NCBI GenBank assembly: GCA_017626015.1
Contig: JAGAJO010000009.1
Location: 186,001-250,000 of the forward strand
Source of the DNA: Ruminococcus sp.
GTDB lineage: Bacteria; Bacillota; Clostridia; Oscillospirales; Ruminococcaceae
DNA length: 64,000 nt
Direction: 5' to 3'
Below the pieces are notes generated by a model that made no database searches, was not told the DNA's origin, and saw only the letters and a list, made by a program, of their open reading frames with translations. The translations under genes and the position numbers were made by a program. The stretch's first letter is position 1. Each line of letters begins with the position of its first letter. This document shows positions 7,055 to 39,842 of this stretch, piece after piece.

Positions 7055-8386
7055 ATGGCATTACCGGTCGTCGCCGTTGTGGGAAGACCTAACGTGGGCA
7101 AATCCACGCTTTTTAATAAACTGATAGGACAGAGACTTTCGATAGTAGAGGACACTCCCGGAGTTACGAGAGACCGTATCTACGGTAAGTGCGAATGGCT
7201 CGGGCATGAGTTTATGCTGATAGATACCGGGGGGATCGAGCCGGATTCGGACGATGTTATCCTGTCGCAGATGAGACGTCAGTCAGAAGTCGCCATTACC
7301 AGCGCTGATGTAATAATTTTCGTTACCGATATACGCTCGGGAGTTACCGCTTCCGATTCCGAGGTTGCGCAGATGCTTATAAAATCCGGAAAGCCTGTAG
7401 TATTGTGTGTAAATAAGGTCGATAATCTAGGCGAGCCTCCTATGGAGCTTTATGAATTTTACAATCTGGGATTGGGTGAGCCTTTCCCTGTGTCTTCCGT
7501 ACACGGTCACGGAACGGGAGATATGCTGGACGAGGTACTCAGGTATCTTCCGGAGGAAACGACTGAGGAAGCGGAGGAAACCGCCGTCAGGGTAGCCGTC
7601 ATCGGAAAACCCAATGTGGGGAAATCCTCAATTATCAATCGTATATGCGGCGAAGAAAGAGTAATTGTTTCCGATGTTGCAGGCACTACAAGAGACGCTA
7701 CGGACACGGTAGTTGAAAACGGAGGAGAAAAATTTGTTTTGATTGATACTGCCGGAATACGCCGGAAGTCAAAGGTTCTTGAAGCTGTGGAAAAATATTC
7801 TGTGCTGAGAGCGTATATGGCTGTGGACAGGGCAGACGTGGCAGTTATCGTGATAGACGCCGTCGTAGGCTTTACCGAGCAGGATTCAAAGGTTGCGGGT
7901 TATGCCCATGAAAAGGGGAAAGCCTGCGTTGTTGCGGTCAATAAGTGGGACGCCATTGAAAAGGATACCAACACAATGAACGAGTACCGTAAGAAACTGG
8001 AAAACGACTTCAGCTTTATGAGCTATGTGCCCTTTGTGTTTATTTCTGCAAAAACAGGACTCAGATTGGATAAGCTTTTTGAAACTATAAGATATGTTGC
8101 CGAGCAGAATGCGGTAAGAATACCTACCGGCAGACTGAACGAGGTGCTTGCCTATGCGACCTCCAGGGTACAGCCGCCGTCAGACAAGGGCAGACGTCTT
8201 AAAATATATTATATGACTCAGGCATCAACCAAGCCGCCGACATTTGTATTTTTTGTGAACAGGGCGGAGCTTTTCCATTTTTCATATCAGAGATATATTG
8301 AAAATCAGATAAGAGAGACTTTCGGGCTTGACGGAACGCCTATAGTTTTTAAAATAAGAGAACGGGATAAGGACGACGTTAAATAA
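7055..8386 (+). CDS. der: Ribosome biogenesis GTPase Der (EngA)
   Basis: Der assists assembly of the 50S subunit. The 443-residue product has two tandem GTPase domains, with P-loops GRPNVGKST near residue 10 and GKPNVGKSS near 184, each followed by switch regions (DTPGVTRD, DVAGTTRD) and NKxD motifs (NKVD, NKWD). A C-terminal KH-like domain follows. The open frame extends upstream to 6956, but ATG 7055 is chosen because of its GGGAG site, the promoter at 6983-7011 and the typical family start. It leads the der-plsY-gpsA operon seen in many clostridia. Confidence 0.96.
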   Translation: MALPVVAVVGRPNVGKSTLFNKLIGQRLSIVEDTPGVTRDRIYGKCEWLGHEFMLIDTGGIEPDSDDVILSQMRRQSEVAITSADVIIFVTDIRSGVTASDSEVAQMLIKSGKPVVLCVNKVDNLGEPPMELYEFYNLGLGEPFPVSSVHGHGTGDMLDEVLRYLPEETTEEAEETAVRVAVIGKPNVGKSSIINRICGEERVIVSDVAGTTRDATDTVVENGGEKFVLIDTAGIRRKSKVLEAVEKYSVLRAYMAVDRADVAVIVIDAVVGFTEQDSKVAGYAHEKGKACVVAVNKWDAIEKDTNTMNEYRKKLENDFSFMSYVPFVFISAKTGLRLDKLFETIRYVAEQNAVRIPTGRLNEVLAYATSRVQPPSDKGRRLKIYYMTQASTKPPTFVFFVNRAELFHFSYQRYIENQIRETFGLDGTPIVFKIRERDKDDVK

Positions 8387-35055: not shown

Positions 35056-35089
35056 AAATCCGCAGTTAAGGTTATCTGCGGATTTTTTT
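35056..35089 (+). terminator. Intrinsic terminator of lysA
   Basis: The stem aaatccgca/tgcggattt with a short loop is followed by a run of T residues. Confidence 0.85.
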
Positions 35090-35119: not shown

Positions 35120-35179
35120 TTGCAATCTGCATGAAAATGTTGTATAATATTATATTGAGTTGGTATGCTTAAACATACC
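35120..35179 (+). promoter_or_regulatory. Promoter and 5' palindrome of the gatCAB-aspS operon
   Basis: TTGCAA (35120-35125), a 17-bp spacer and TATAAT (35143-35148) form a strong promoter. The predicted transcript start is near 35155, and a perfect inverted repeat ggtatg-cttaaa-catacc (35162-35179) follows at once. It could be an operator or a stabilising 5' stem-loop in the mRNA. Confidence 0.7.
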
Positions 35180-35206: not shown

Positions 35207-35485
35207 ATGGATACTAATTTGGTGAAATATCTTGCCGAGCTTGGAAAGCTTGAATTTTCCAGTGAAGAGCTTGAAAAGACTGCGGAGGAAATGACAGATA
35301 TTATTGCCCTTATGGATACCGTCAAGGAAATTGACATAACCTACGATGATCTGAAGGACAACCATAACGTTTATCTTGACAATCTGAGAACGGACGAGCC
35401 TAAGGCTTCCATGCCTACCTCCAAGGTGCTTCAGAACGCTGAGAATACAAATAACTGCTTTGTCGTTCCAAAGGTAGTTGAATAA
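35207..35485 (+). CDS. gatC: Asp-tRNA(Asn)/Glu-tRNA(Gln) amidotransferase subunit GatC
   Basis: GatC is the small subunit that wraps around GatA and stabilises the GatAB core. The 92-residue protein has KYLAELGKLEFSSEELEK at the N-terminus and the ends LRTDEPKASMP and FVVPKVVE typical of the family. ATG 35207 has AAGGTAAGG upstream; the open frame continues to 35165. It starts the gatC-gatA-gatB:aspS operon. Confidence 0.94.
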   Translation: MDTNLVKYLAELGKLEFSSEELEKTAEEMTDIIALMDTVKEIDITYDDLKDNHNVYLDNLRTDEPKASMPTSKVLQNAENTNNCFVVPKVVE

Positions 35486-35510
35486 TTTAAACAGAAGGGT
35501 AGTGTGTGAT

Positions 35511-36959
35511 TTGGACATTTCTTCAATGAAGCTGAGAGATATGCGCAGGGCGTTAGACGAAAAGAAGATCTCTGCGCCCGAGCTTGCAAAGGAATACCTT
35601 GAAAATATAAACAAATACGATGAAAAGCTTGAATGCTATATAACAGTAACTGCCGATAAGGCTGCGGCACAGGCAGAAAAGGCTCAGGAAATTATTAATA
35701 AAGGAGAGGCTAAGGCTCTTACGGGAATCCCTCTTGCAATAAAGGACAATATCTGTACGGAGGGCGTAAGGACTACCTGCGCTTCAAGGATCCTTGAGAA
35801 CTTCGTTCCGCCTTATAATGCAACGGTTATGGAAAAGCTGGAACATCAGAATATTGTCATGCTTGGTAAAACATCAATGGACGAGTTTGCCATGGGCGGT
35901 TCTACTCAGACATCGGCATTTAAAAAGACAAAAAATCCATATAACGTTAATTGCGTTCCCGGAGGATCTTCCGGAGGTTCAGCTGCGGTCGTTGCGGCGG
36001 ATCTTGCTCCGGCTGCTCTCGGTTCCGATACCGGAGGTTCTATCAGGCAGCCCTCGGCGTTCTGCGGAGTGACGGGTATAAAACCAACATACAGCCGTGT
36101 GTCACGTTACGGTTTGGTAGCCTTCGCTTCTTCGCTGGATCAGATCGGACCTATCGCCAAGGATTCACACGACTGTGCGATCCTCCTTAATGCGATCTGC
36201 GGTTTCGATCCCCACGACGGTACAAGCTCTGTAAACGAGGTCCCTGATTTTACGGCAAAAATCGGGAAACCGGTAAAGGGTATGAAGATTGCATTGCCCA
36301 AGGAGTTCTTTGCGGATGGTATCGACAGCGAAGTCAGAGATGCTGTCTTAAAGGCTGCCGACGAATACAAGGCTATGGGAGCCGAGCTGGTGGAATGTTC
36401 CATGCCGTCACTTAAATATGCCGTCCCATGTTATTATCTGCTTGCCTGCGCTGAAGCCGCTTCCAATCTTTCAAGATATGACGGTATTAAGTACGGCCAC
36501 AGAGCCAAGGGTGCCGACAGCTATGAGGAGCTGGTGATCAGATCACGCTCCGAGGGCTTCGGCGAAGAGGTAAAAAGAAGGATACTTTTAGGAAACTATT
36601 GTCTTTCCAGCGGATATTACGACGCTTATTACAGAAAGGCTCTTGCTCTGCGCCAGCTCATAAGAAAAGAATATGACGATATTTTTGAGAACTGCGATGT
36701 GATCCTTACGCCCACGACCCCGACGGTAGCTTACAGTCCTGAAATAACTGCCGATCCGGTACAGATGTATCAGGCGGATATCTGCACTGTCACAGTAAAC
36801 ATAGCAGGTCTTCCCGCAGTGTCAACACCCTGCGGATACGATAAAAACGGAATGCCCATAGGACTTTCAATAATCGGAAGAAAGTTTGACGAGCAGACCG
36901 TTCTTCAGATTTCAGATGCCTACGAGCAGGGATTCACTCCCGTTGCGCCGAAGCTTTAA
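35511..36959 (+). CDS. gatA: Amidotransferase subunit GatA
   Basis: GatA is the amidase subunit that releases ammonia from glutamine or asparagine. The 482-residue protein has the amidase-signature Ser-cisSer-Lys triad: Lys in AIKDNICTEG, and GGSSGGSAA with GSDTGGSIRQPSAFCG. TTG 35511 is the likely start, because AGAAGGG lies 11 nt upstream and the resulting N-terminus matches the family. GTG 35502 is too close to that site, and ATG 35526 would trim the first helix. It ends 15 bp before the GatB-AspRS gene. Confidence 0.95.
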   Translation: MDISSMKLRDMRRALDEKKISAPELAKEYLENINKYDEKLECYITVTADKAAAQAEKAQEIINKGEAKALTGIPLAIKDNICTEGVRTTCASRILENFVPPYNATVMEKLEHQNIVMLGKTSMDEFAMGGSTQTSAFKKTKNPYNVNCVPGGSSGGSAAVVAADLAPAALGSDTGGSIRQPSAFCGVTGIKPTYSRVSRYGLVAFASSLDQIGPIAKDSHDCAILLNAICGFDPHDGTSSVNEVPDFTAKIGKPVKGMKIALPKEFFADGIDSEVRDAVLKAADEYKAMGAELVECSMPSLKYAVPCYYLLACAEAASNLSRYDGIKYGHRAKGADSYEELVIRSRSEGFGEEVKRRILLGNYCLSSGYYDAYYRKALALRQLIRKEYDDIFENCDVILTPTTPTVAYSPEITADPVQMYQADICTVTVNIAGLPAVSTPCGYDKNGMPIGLSIIGRKFDEQTVLQISDAYEQGFTPVAPKL

Positions 36960-36974
36960 AGGAGGAAAAGACAA

Positions 36975-39842
36975 ATGGAAAAATGGAAAACCGTCATCGG
37001 TCTTGAAATCCATGCCGAGCTGCTTACAAAATCAAAAATTTTCTGCACCTGCTCTGCCGAATTCGGAGGAAAACAGAACACAAGATGCTGTCCTGTTTGT
37101 ACAGGTATGCCGGGTACGCTTCCTGTTATAAACCAGACTGCCGTTGAATATGCGGTAAAAGCGGGATATGCTCTTAACTGCGAAATAAACAAGTTTTCGG
37201 TATTTGACAGAAAGAACTACTTCTATCCCGATCTTCCCAAAGCGTATCAGATCTCACAGCTTTACAGACCTATTGTCGGTGCAGGATATGTGCCGATCAA
37301 CGTAAACGGAGAGAAAAAAAATATAAGGATAAATCACATTCATCTTGAGGAAGACGCAGGAAAGCTTGTTCACGATGATTTCAACGGTATATCCATGGCG
37401 GATTATAACCGCTGCGGAATTCCCCTTATTGAGATAGTTACCGAGCCTGACATTTCCTCTGCGGAGGAGGCTATGGCGTTTGTTGAGCAGATCTCTCTGC
37501 TTTTGCAGTATGCTGGAGTGTGCGATTGTAAAATGGAACAAGGCTCACTGAGATGTGACGTTAACATTTCCCTTATGAGACCTGACGCAAAGGAGTTTGG
37601 TACAAGAGCTGAGATAAAAAACATTAACTCCATAAAATCAGTGGGAAGGGCTATAAAGTACGAGGAAAAGCGTCAGGCTCTTTTACTTGAAGCCGGTAAA
37701 AAGGTCGTTCAGGAGACCAGACGTTACAATGCCAACAGAGATAAGACTACCTCGATGCGTACAAAGGAAAACGCTAACGATTACCGTTATTTCCCGGAGC
37801 CTGATATCCTTCAGGTAAATCTTACTGACAGTCAGCTGGAGGAGATAAGGGCAAAGCTCCCCGAAATGCCTGCTAAGAGAAAGCAAAAGTATATGGATTA
37901 TGGTATTTCTGAGGTCGATGCTAATATTCTTATACAGTCCAAGGTCATATCCGACTTTTTCGAGTCCGTTGTTAAATCATACAATAATCCGAAAAGCATT
38001 GCAGTTTTTGTGCTGGGCGAATTTATGAGACGTGTAAATCTGGGTGAAATAGATGTCAATAACATCACCTTTACACCGGAGGATTTTGCTTCGCTTGTTG
38101 AAATGGCTGACACTGAAAAGGTTTCTAAAAATGACGCCAAGGCGATTTTCAGAGAAATGGTCGAAAGCGGCGGAAAACCTATGGATATCGCTTCAAATAA
38201 GGGTATGCTCATCACTGTGGATACCACAAAGGTAGAAACGGGGATTTGCGAGATTCTTGAGAAAAATGCGGCTCAGGTCGCACAGTATAAAAACGGTGAG
38301 AAAAAAGTATTCGGATTCATTATGGGGCAGTGTACAAAAGCCCTTAAGGGCATAGCTACTCCCAAGATCATAAAAGAGATCCTTGAAAGCAAGCTGGAGG
38401 AAGCGTCTGTCGAGACTGAGGAAAAGACCGGAAACGCCGCAGCTGAGAGCAGCGTTATCGACGCTTCAAGGCTGACGAAGTATGAAAACACCGACAAATA
38501 TACTCCTGCTGCTGATGGAGATATGCTTATGATCGGTACTGATACCCTTAAGAAGGAATTTACTCTGGAGCAGGCTGTAAGCAGCATGGGCAAGGACGTT
38601 GAATTTTCCGGCTGTGTTCATAAGATCAAAAAAATGGGAAGTATTTCCTTCATACTGATAAGAACATCAAGAAACGTTTTCCAGACTGTTTATTCTGCTG
38701 ACAAGTGTAGTGATTCCATTGAGGGTCTACGAGAAGGATTTTTCGTAAATGTAAAGGGTACTGTCAATAAAAATGACAGGGAATTTACAGGTGTTGAGAT
38801 CGTGCTTAAATCCATTAAGCTTATTTCAACTTCCGCAGCAGAAACTCCTTTAAAGATCTCTCAGGGCAAGCTTAACTGCACTATTGAGGTAAACCTTGAC
38901 AATAGAGCGACTTCTCTCAGAAATCCCTATGAGCGTGCTATTTTCAAGCTTCAGGAGGGTCTTGTTCAGGGTATGCATAGATTTATGCAGGCTAATAATT
39001 TTACAGAGATACATTCTCCGAAGATCGTTGCTCAGGGTGCAGAGGGCGGAGCTAACATATTTGCTCTTGACTATTTTGGAAAGCATGCTTTCCTCAATCA
39101 GTCTCCTCAGTTTTATAAACAGACAGCAGTGGCATTCTTTGACAGGGTCTATGAGATAGCTCCAGTTTACAGAGCGGAAAAGCACGCAACTTCACGTCAT
39201 ATCAATGAATATATTGGTCTTGATTTTGAAATGGGATATATAGACAGTATGTATGACGTAATGGCGATGGAGATCGCAATGCTCAAATCAATGTTCTCAT
39301 ATATCAAAGAAAATTATCAGAATGAGATCAGGATACTTGAGGCTGATATTCCCGAGATCGGTGAGGTTCCGTCTGTCAAGTTTGCAGACGCTATCAGGCT
39401 TCTCAGAGGAGGAGAGAGCAGCGGAAAGAAGTTTGATCTTGATCCTGAGGATGAAGTCAACCTTGGAAAATATGCAAAGGAAAAGTATAATTCCGACTTT
39501 ATATTCGTTACACACTTCCCGTCGTCAAAGCCGCCTTTCTACGCAATGAATTCAAGAGAGGATCCAAGGGAAGCGTACAAGTTCGATCTTCTTTTCAGAG
39601 GTCTTGAGATCACCTCGGGCGGACAGCGTATTCACGATTACGATGAACAGGTAGCTAAGATGAAAGCTCAGGGACTTGATCCTGATGATTTCAAAAATTA
39701 TCTTGAGGCTCACAAGTACGGCTTGCCGCCACACGGAGGTCTTGGCATAGGACTTGAAAGACTGCTTATGAAGCTGCTTAATAAGAACAACATCCGTGAG
39801 ACTTCTATGTTCCCGAGAGATATTAACAGACTTATACCATAA
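36975..39842 (+). CDS. gatB-aspS: GatB fused to archaeal-type (nondiscriminating) aspartyl-tRNA synthetase
   Basis: One uninterrupted 955-codon frame encodes two complete enzymes. Residues 1 to about 476 are GatB: VIGLEIHAEL, the zinc cysteines CTCSAEF and CCPVC, IHLEEDAGK, DYNRCGIPLIEIVTEPD, and a full helical and YqeY-like tail ending KEILESKLEEAS. A polar linker (about 477-518) follows. From about 525 comes an archaeal/eukaryal-type AspRS: an OB-fold anticodon domain with SGCVHKIKKMG (H549), motif 2 VYRAEKHATSRH, FEMGYID, and motif 3 GIGLERLLMKLL. The histidine in the OB-fold loop is what nondiscriminating AspRSs often carry. The chain would charge tRNA(Asn) with Asp and then activate it for amidation by GatA. 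Confidence 0.93.
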   Translation: MEKWKTVIGLEIHAELLTKSKIFCTCSAEFGGKQNTRCCPVCTGMPGTLPVINQTAVEYAVKAGYALNCEINKFSVFDRKNYFYPDLPKAYQISQLYRPIVGAGYVPINVNGEKKNIRINHIHLEEDAGKLVHDDFNGISMADYNRCGIPLIEIVTEPDISSAEEAMAFVEQISLLLQYAGVCDCKMEQGSLRCDVNISLMRPDAKEFGTRAEIKNINSIKSVGRAIKYEEKRQALLLEAGKKVVQETRRYNANRDKTTSMRTKENANDYRYFPEPDILQVNLTDSQLEEIRAKLPEMPAKRKQKYMDYGISEVDANILIQSKVISDFFESVVKSYNNPKSIAVFVLGEFMRRVNLGEIDVNNITFTPEDFASLVEMADTEKVSKNDAKAIFREMVESGGKPMDIASNKGMLITVDTTKVETGICEILEKNAAQVAQYKNGEKKVFGFIMGQCTKALKGIATPKIIKEILESKLEEASVETEEKTGNAAAESSVIDASRLTKYENTDKYTPAADGDMLMIGTDTLKKEFTLEQAVSSMGKDVEFSGCVHKIKKMGSISFILIRTSRNVFQTVYSADKCSDSIEGLREGFFVNVKGTVNKNDREFTGVEIVLKSIKLISTSAAETPLKISQGKLNCTIEVNLDNRATSLRNPYERAIFKLQEGLVQGMHRFMQANNFTEIHSPKIVAQGAEGGANIFALDYFGKHAFLNQSPQFYKQTAVAFFDRVYEIAPVYRAEKHATSRHINEYIGLDFEMGYIDSMYDVMAMEIAMLKSMFSYIKENYQNEIRILEADIPEIGEVPSVKFADAIRLLRGGESSGKKFDLDPEDEVNLGKYAKEKYNSDFIFVTHFPSSKPPFYAMNSREDPREAYKFDLLFRGLEITSGGQRIHDYDEQVAKMKAQGLDPDDFKNYLEAHKYGLPPHGGLGIGLERLLMKLLNKNNIRETSMFPRDINRLIP
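38517..38531 (+). promoter_or_regulatory. Possible internal ribosome-binding site and start for free AspRS
   Basis: GGAG (38517-38520) is followed after eight bases by an in-frame ATG (38529, codon 519), right where the linker ends and the AspRS domain begins. Use of it would give a 437-residue protein, the normal size of a stand-alone archaeal-type AspRS. ATG 38523 is also in frame but too close to the GGAG. Confidence 0.45.

Follow-up and report, generated by a model that had tools for sequence, protein, structure and literature searches.

The stretch analysed here, 64,000 nucleotides of a Ruminococcus sp. genome (assembly GCA_017626015.1, contig JAGAJO010000009.1, positions 186,001 to 250,000; hereafter the window), carries one reading frame in which GatB, a subunit of the tRNA-dependent amidotransferase GatCAB, runs on into an archaeal-type aspartyl-tRNA synthetase (AspRS; this type is called AspRS2 below, its gene aspS2). 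The fusion itself, its conservation, the absence from the source genome of any match over cut-off to asparaginyl- or glutaminyl-tRNA synthetase (AsnRS, GlnRS), the specificity columns of the synthetase, and the gene order in relatives together make it very probable, from sequence evidence, that the product is a covalent subunit of an Asn-transamidosome, the AspRS-GatCAB complex that makes Asn-tRNA(Asn). The main parts of the gene, in window coordinates, are:

36975..39842, forward strand: fused gatB::aspS2, a single ATG-started open reading frame of 955 amino acids
36975..38399, forward strand: GatB half, residues 1-475, with catalytic and YqeY-like tail domains (NCBIfam, Pfam)
38583..39839, forward strand: archaeal-type AspRS half, residues 537-955, with OB fold and class II catalytic domain

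The sequence-only reading of this DNA had described GatB and an archaeal-type AspRS, each complete, in one chain with all catalytic motifs intact, and both points hold. The GatB half matches TIGR00133 (gatB) at residues 2-474 with 535.2 bits against a curated cut-off of 314.8 (NCBIfam), and the AspRS half matches TIGR00458 (aspS_nondisc) at residues 539-955 with 387.4 bits against 368.4, as well as PRK05159 at residues 529-955 (520 bits, cut-off 353). Positions 12-428 of the TIGR00458 profile align to residues 539-955 without a large insertion, and the bacterial GAD insertion is absent. GatB_N, GatB_Yqey, and tRNA-synt_2 were above their Pfam cut-offs, while the Pfam OB-fold model was marginally below (25.9 vs. 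27). The translation contains cysteines 24, 26, 39, and 42, GLEIHAEL, and HLEEDAGK in the GatB half and class II motifs 1-3 in the AspRS half, which we take to be the functional motifs of the two enzymes. By analogy with other GatB proteins, the GatB half would amidate Asp-tRNA(Asn) and/or Glu-tRNA(Gln).

The same fusion was recovered in relatives, including several named isolates. The search ranked 145 relatives, of which the best 80 gave 78 distinct loci (one genome per species). GatB and AspRS share one frame in 53/78 of these, a proportion that is not a natural frequency as ranking by likeness to the fused protein favours fused loci; two frames were found in 23/78, and 2/78 were undecidable (L099, cut by a contig end, and L100, in which aspS2 is absent from the locus; L numbers denote loci and G numbers genomes). 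One locus counted as separate, L112, has its gatB split over two frames. In single-frame loci, the two matched parts are 52-60 residues apart. Fused loci include Ruminococcus bicirculans 80/3 (L036), from a record titled complete chromosome, R. callidus ATCC 27760 (L098), and Ruminococcus sp. YE71 (L048); Ruminiclostridium sufflavum (L088) carries GatB and AspRS2 as two genes. In five loci (L071, L077, L082, L087, and L088), the frames are parted by one stop codon, so that an assembly or sequencing error erasing such a stop could in principle mimic the fusion. The probability of such an artefact is nonetheless close to nil: the open junction recurs in 53 loci of different species, including the R. 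bicirculans chromosome, which rules the artefact out in practice, and the fused proteins share a conserved linker motif that is unseen in the unfused proteins read.

The sequence-only reading had held that relatives with two separate genes would count against the fusion. Such relatives do exist, in the 23 loci mentioned above, but these lie across one branch from the fused ones, which fits a single fusion event. In a tree of the joined halves (70 rows, i.e., the window and the 69/78 loci having sufficiently long halves), one branch separates fused from separate rows (Shimodaira-Hasegawa-like approximate likelihood ratio test [SH-aLRT] 74). A second tree of 68 rows, leaving out the long branches of L086 and L088, gave the same single-branch split (76% of 200 bootstraps, SH-aLRT 86), with 1-2 state changes across the bootstrap trees. 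The trees by themselves give no direction of change; since the sister lineage holds gatC-gatA-gatB-aspS2, however, the operon probably preceded the fusion, for which a single origin through loss of the gatB stop codon is most probable.

Between the two halves lies a linker of two distinct parts, followed by a segment resembling the start of unfused AspRS2, within which a possible internal start occurs:

38400..38465, forward strand: linker, variable part, residues 476-497 (entropy, predicted local distance difference test [pLDDT])
38466..38507, forward strand: linker motif LTxYxNxxxYxP, residues 498-511 (conservation, pLDDT)
38508..38582, forward strand: N-terminal segment of the AspRS half, residues 512-536, resembling the start of unfused AspRS2
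38517..38531, forward strand: possible internal start, GGAG 8 nt 5' of an in-frame ATG at codon 519 (sequence)

Across 32 fused proteins, mean column entropy reached 2.92 bits at residues 476-497, compared to 0.67 in either enzyme half. The motif that follows is strongly conserved, with P511 in all 32, T501 and N505 in 29 each, Y509 in 29 (Phe in the other 3), and Y503 in 28 (Phe in 4), and a loose regular expression matched it in 45/49 fused proteins, the four misses being near variants by eye. The unfused AspRS2s read begin after the position of this motif. We also considered an origin of the linker in a small gene lying between gatB and aspS2. This was rejected because a pattern stricter than that applied to the fused proteins failed to detect the motif when run on the intergenic regions of 8 unfused loci (7 distinct). 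Separately, inspection by eye showed a short frame resembling a membrane protein between gatB and aspS2 in the unfused relatives L075 (~7450-7680), L104, L106, L107, L108, and L109.

Structure prediction is consistent with this division of the linker. An AlphaFold2 model built from 81 rows had a mean pLDDT of 82.7 and a predicted template modelling score (pTM) of 0.52, compared to a poorer mean pLDDT of 66.9 with 32 rows. Predicted confidence fell below 50 at residues 481-493, and rose to 89 in a block at 501-510 and to 90 and 88 in blocks within 511-530, with short strands predicted at 512-514 and 517-519. Foldseek matched the model to GatB chains and AspRS chains of the transamidosome structure 3kfu. 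In the model, the linker thus begins disordered and ends in the conserved motif, which is ordered and probably packs on the AspRS half or on another surface. The low-confidence stretch, together with the GGAG 8 nt before ATG 519, would also suit a scheme in which the frame yields two proteins, by internal initiation or by cleavage in the disordered stretch, that assemble into an ordinary transient transamidosome. We regard this scheme as improbable, since Met519 is poorly conserved (15/32 fused proteins) and yet the frame is kept open in 53/78 loci.

The likely specificity of the AspRS half was judged at two anticodon-domain columns, which we take from work on Deinococcus, Thermococcus, and Thermus enzymes to separate nondiscriminating from discriminating AspRSs; a literature search for determinant residues of AspRS specificity returned no match. 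Their positions in the fused gene are:

38619..38621, forward strand: H549 codon, column of the Thermus thermophilus AspRS2 His and of Thermococcus kodakarensis W26
38784..38786, forward strand: F604 codon, column of T. kodakarensis K85 and of the T. thermophilus Pro

The nearest solved structure to the AspRS half is T. thermophilus AspRS2, the enzyme of transamidosome 3kfu. The His noted earlier in the OB-fold loop was confirmed as H549 in GCVHKIKKMG, and among the 32 fused proteins the first column is His in 28 and Tyr in 4. The second column is variable, with Pro in 1/32 and Lys in 0/32. Archaeal-type AspRSs from 10 genomes without GatB (nine of the genus and one from another family of the order) instead have Glu (9) or Asp (1) at the first column and Lys at the second in 10/10; AsnRS is over cut-off in 9 of these 10 genomes, and the tenth (G012) holds a fragment. 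In 32 rows of AspRS2 taken from genomes that do carry GatB (26 distinct by count), the first column is His, apart from Tyr in L088, and the second is never Lys. The housekeeping bacterial AspRS has His in 0/16 fused genomes (15 hand-picked and the source genome), with Met, Ile, Leu, Val, or Lys in its place, and bacterial AspRSs encoded in Gat operons have His at the corresponding position in 10/11. Taken together, the AspRS half looks nondiscriminating and is the best candidate for charging tRNA(Asn) with Asp, while the housekeeping enzyme looks discriminating. The nondiscriminating character proposed by the sequence-only reading is therefore upheld by the His of the first column and by the lack of the discriminating Lys at the second, but not by the Pro of the T. 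thermophilus enzyme, which is missing.

The substrate tRNA was less informative. The tRNA(Asn) of Asn-transamidosomes is characterised by a U1-A72 pair, which was seen by eye in 9 of the 13 fused genomes searched (the other 4, the source genome among them, gave no tRNA(Asn) match). This pair was discarded as proof of amidation, since AsnRS-bearing genomes (G008, G021, G036, and G044) share it. In the source genome, a tRNA(Asn) pattern search gave no match in the assembly; the gene was probably lost in collapsed repeats, because several relatives carry tRNA(Asn) near contig ends. In L139 (G028, with AsnRS and without GatB), tRNA(Asn) seems by eye to begin with G instead of U1.

In the source assembly (2.42 Mb, 28 contigs, 99.5% complete), neither AsnRS nor GlnRS is matched over cut-off. 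PF00152 matches four places in this genome: a bacterial AspRS, the fusion, a 532-residue frame taken for lysyl-tRNA synthetase, and a weak match near aspS in a frame taken for histidyl-tRNA synthetase. Hence asnS, whose presence the sequence-only reading had left open, was not detected, and the only other AspRS is the bacterial-type, discriminating-looking one; because of these two findings, the fusion is the likely source of Asp-tRNA(Asn). The pattern extends to relatives, for which the counts of fused genomes and of AsnRS were taken from complete per-genome tables. In a sample of 297 genomes of the family, itself taken from a larger group, AsnRS was over cut-off in 2/27 fused genomes and in 188/270 others (Fisher p = 2e-10, uncorrected for kinship, the fused genomes being one clade), and it was absent over cut-off in 22/24 fused genomes with at least 90% completeness and at most 5% contamination. 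A sample of 61 nearer relatives included 10 fused genomes, of which 0/10 had AsnRS over cut-off, and within the genus AsnRS was found in 18/20 non-fused genomes, with a fragment in one more. A narrower comparison used 29 unfused genomes, hand-picked among the matches listed for a near GatB (≥54% identity) and a near AspRS2 (≥53% identity): AsnRS was present in 15 or 16 of these, depending on the uncertain case of G244 (Fisher p = 4e-4 or 1e-4). Finally, loss of free Asn synthesis is contradicted by TIGR01536, which was over cut-off in 11/11 fused genomes examined; the fusion is therefore not the sole route to Asn.

Substrate range depends on which other amidotransferases a genome holds. GlnRS was over cut-off in 0/32 fused genomes (the 27 of the family sample and G003, G014, G016, G019, and G026, with G001 excluded for its split at a contig end), each of which had one weak match to the GlnRS model in a frame judged to be of glutamyl-tRNA synthetase (GluRS) size. 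In 13/32, or 14 if the G263 pieces are one gene, the fused GatB is the single GatB (PF02934), including five genomes that are 97-99% complete (G022, G027, G164, G242, and G087; G164 in 2 contigs). Because these 13 genomes lack another GatB and GlnRS is over cut-off in none of the 32, the tethered amidotransferase should, where it is the sole one, also amidate Glu-tRNA(Gln) supplied by a separate GluRS, and is unlikely to be closed to substrates other than Asp-tRNA(Asn). The source genome does hold a second, ordinary, complete gatC-gatA-gatB alongside its bacterial AspRS, and this pair could make Asn-tRNA while the AspRS half of the fusion is discriminating or spare. This arrangement seems to us very unlikely, as the specificity columns of both enzymes point the opposite way and a second GatB is absent from the five fused genomes of ≥97% completeness. 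As an independent observation, both GatB and any GlnRS over cut-off are missing from 11 members of the genus (G002, G005, G007, G012, G015, G018, G020, G023, G024, G025, and G028), some of them incomplete assemblies, so that some route to Gln-tRNA(Gln) may escape both models; in G028 (L207), a 552-residue frame was taken for GluRS.

Upstream of the fused gene lie its two presumptive partners and a putative promoter:

35120..35148, forward strand: promoter-like TTGCAA-17-TATAAT 5' of gatC, 10/12 consensus matches
35207..35485, forward strand: gatC, 92 amino acids (alternative longer start 35165), TIGR00135 54.9 bits, cut-off 47.1
35478..36959, forward strand: gatA, up to 493 amino acids, its frame sharing 8 nt with gatC, TIGR00132 610.9 bits, cut-off 481.1

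The placement of the fused gene downstream of gatC and gatA, as first read from the sequence, was confirmed by these scores, and a strong ribosome-binding site, AAAGGAGG, directly precedes the gatB start. A hairpin followed by a T run (~35057-35089, by eye) closes the preceding lysA-like gene (TIGR01048, 282.8 bits, slightly below the cut-off of 297.9). Because of this ending and of the promoter-like site before gatC, gatC-gatA-gatB::aspS2 is probably one operon, although the gatC site is weak alone (14 promoter-like sites in the region vs. 8.4 expected). T-box control as in Clostridium was considered and rejected: no T-box reached the Rfam gathering score, either in the window or across 10 related loci, and the ~50 nt leader after the promoter-like site was judged too short.

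Several observations weigh against a covalent Asn-transamidosome. The second specificity column holds Phe (F604) rather than the Pro of T. thermophilus, and the Gat-operon AspRS of L121 has Met in place of the yardstick His. The pTM of 0.52 does not fix the placing of the two halves in the model, and the internal start at codon 519 could also yield free AspRS. AsnRS is kept by two fused genomes of one genus (G162 and G240), and it is missing in 13 or 14 of the 29 unfused carriers, so that the fusion is not needed for AsnRS loss; moreover, a single clade underlies the AsnRS correlation, which is not independent evidence. Of the covalent transamidosome suggested by the sequence-only reading, the joint itself, conserved in a clade, and the lack of AsnRS stand, while an amidotransferase reserved for Asp-tRNA(Asn) does not appear likely.

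In homologous complexes, GatA supplies the ammonia, GatB carries out activation and amidation, and GatC holds both together; the Mycobacterium complex forms only with tRNA (PMC8406222, PMC9499178). The latter, a review citing Bailly 2007, describes the Asn complex as stable across both steps (PMC9499178), and the former reports that trehalose stabilises GatCAB and the complex, raising mycobacterial fidelity (PMC8406222). In the scheme we favour, the GatB::AspRS chain would assemble with the GatA and GatC encoded beside it in the operon, its AspRS half would load Asp onto tRNA(Asn), GatA would free ammonia from Gln, and GatB would activate and then amidate the tRNA-bound Asp. The tether, with ~15-20 loose residues and the ordered motif, would hold the active sites together with no need for tRNA as glue, and mischarged Asp-tRNA(Asn), being kept near the amidase, would likely be repaired before use. 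Since AspRSs of this class form dimers, each dimer would bring two GatCABs together. What is said here of the chemistry, of complex formation with GatA and GatC, of dimerisation, and of a faster or safer transfer is carried over from homologues. In most carriers, Asn-tRNA(Asn) would most probably come from the fusion alone, and where the fusion provides the sole GatB, it would also make Gln-tRNA(Gln) from Glu-tRNA(Gln) supplied by the separate GluRS.

How far the tether shapes the reaction is a separate question. Fusion might only set a 1:1 ratio and joint expression, with tRNA released and rebound and no channelling, a reading we hold to be a serious possibility but short of an even one. The fused GatB should take Glu-tRNA(Gln) where it is the sole GatB and GlnRS is missing, and hence be open to other substrates, unfused sister lineages are without AsnRS about half the time, and the flexible stretch of the linker is highly variable, all of which would suit a loose joint; the conserved ordered motif and the narrow spacing of 52-60 residues suggest more than that. 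The covalent transamidosome may, at its furthest, be permanent and tRNA-independent, with the linker motif as a built-in clamp orienting AspRS to GatB, with the joining having helped make AsnRS dispensable in most carriers, and with one machine that, in some lineages, supplies the whole cell with Asn-tRNA(Asn) and, aided by a separate GluRS, with Gln-tRNA(Gln); we put this forward only tentatively, and rather doubt it in full.

The indirect pathway and the Asn-transamidosome are already known, and the novelty lies in a covalent GatB-AspRS version of a complex so far known from separate proteins. Among the matches listed in the open-licence PMC literature, no title or abstract opening names a GatB-AspRS fusion. 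The closest parallel is the T. thermophilus Asn-transamidosome (3kfu; AspRS2 alone, 1n9w), with the same archaeal-type AspRS and GatCAB partner; there the chains are separate, and a review describes the complex as dependent on tRNA(Asn) (PMC9499178), whereas the fusion is a continuous chain. Stop loss also joins gatCAB-operon neighbours in the Mycobacterium smegmatis GatC-GatA fusion, but this is a laboratory mutant with raised mistranslation and involves other subunits, in contrast to the conserved GatB-AspRS protein (PMC7541841).

A synthetase with a piece resembling the GatB tail also occurs in PRK14703 (GlnRS with C-terminal YqeY), which differs in having the tail domain only and another synthetase, and which the fused protein matches at residues 287-475 only, below cut-off. 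Clostridium acetobutylicum likewise uses a clostridial indirect Asn route, presumably from separate genes; work by Saad in 2012 is said to have placed this tRNA-dependent Asn amidation under T-box control, unlike the window, where no T-box matched at gathering score. A natural covalent version, alongside relatives that keep the two genes separate (in five cases through one stop codon), offers a ready-made comparison for how far Asp-tRNA(Asn) is handed over inside the transamidosome and for whether the stability of the complex determines translation accuracy.

An AspRS is also joined to an amidotransferase subunit in PRK12820 (bifunctional AspRS/amidotransferase subunit C), which differs in its bacterial AspRS, in having GatC and not GatB, and in the order of the parts. 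The fused protein scores 85.2 bits against the PRK12820 cut-off of 1379, over the AspRS part only, and the GatC family was not among the matches listed for it (25 of 26 families). Three other loci encode a bacterial AspRS with a C-terminal GatC (L119:6311-8464, L120:6012-8132, and L121:5696-8050; 718, 707, and 785 amino acids, respectively). In all three, the GatC domain is above the gatC cut-off and the PRK12820 cut-off is missed, the frames adjoin gatA and gatB, and the genomes are without AsnRS over cut-off. In L113, L114, L115, L124, L128, and L130, from other genera, the operon of the near GatB holds a second bacterial AspRS with RDHGG, which occupies the place of the fused lineage's archaeal-type AspRS. 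Besides the fusion, the loci read show AspRS and gatCAB joined within the same bacterial order in several ways, with an archaeal-type AspRS adjacent, a bacterial one downstream or upstream, or a bacterial one fused to GatC. Lastly, the flanks of two related loci contain a NiCo riboswitch (L080:1074-1170) and a tmRNA (L059:922-1292).

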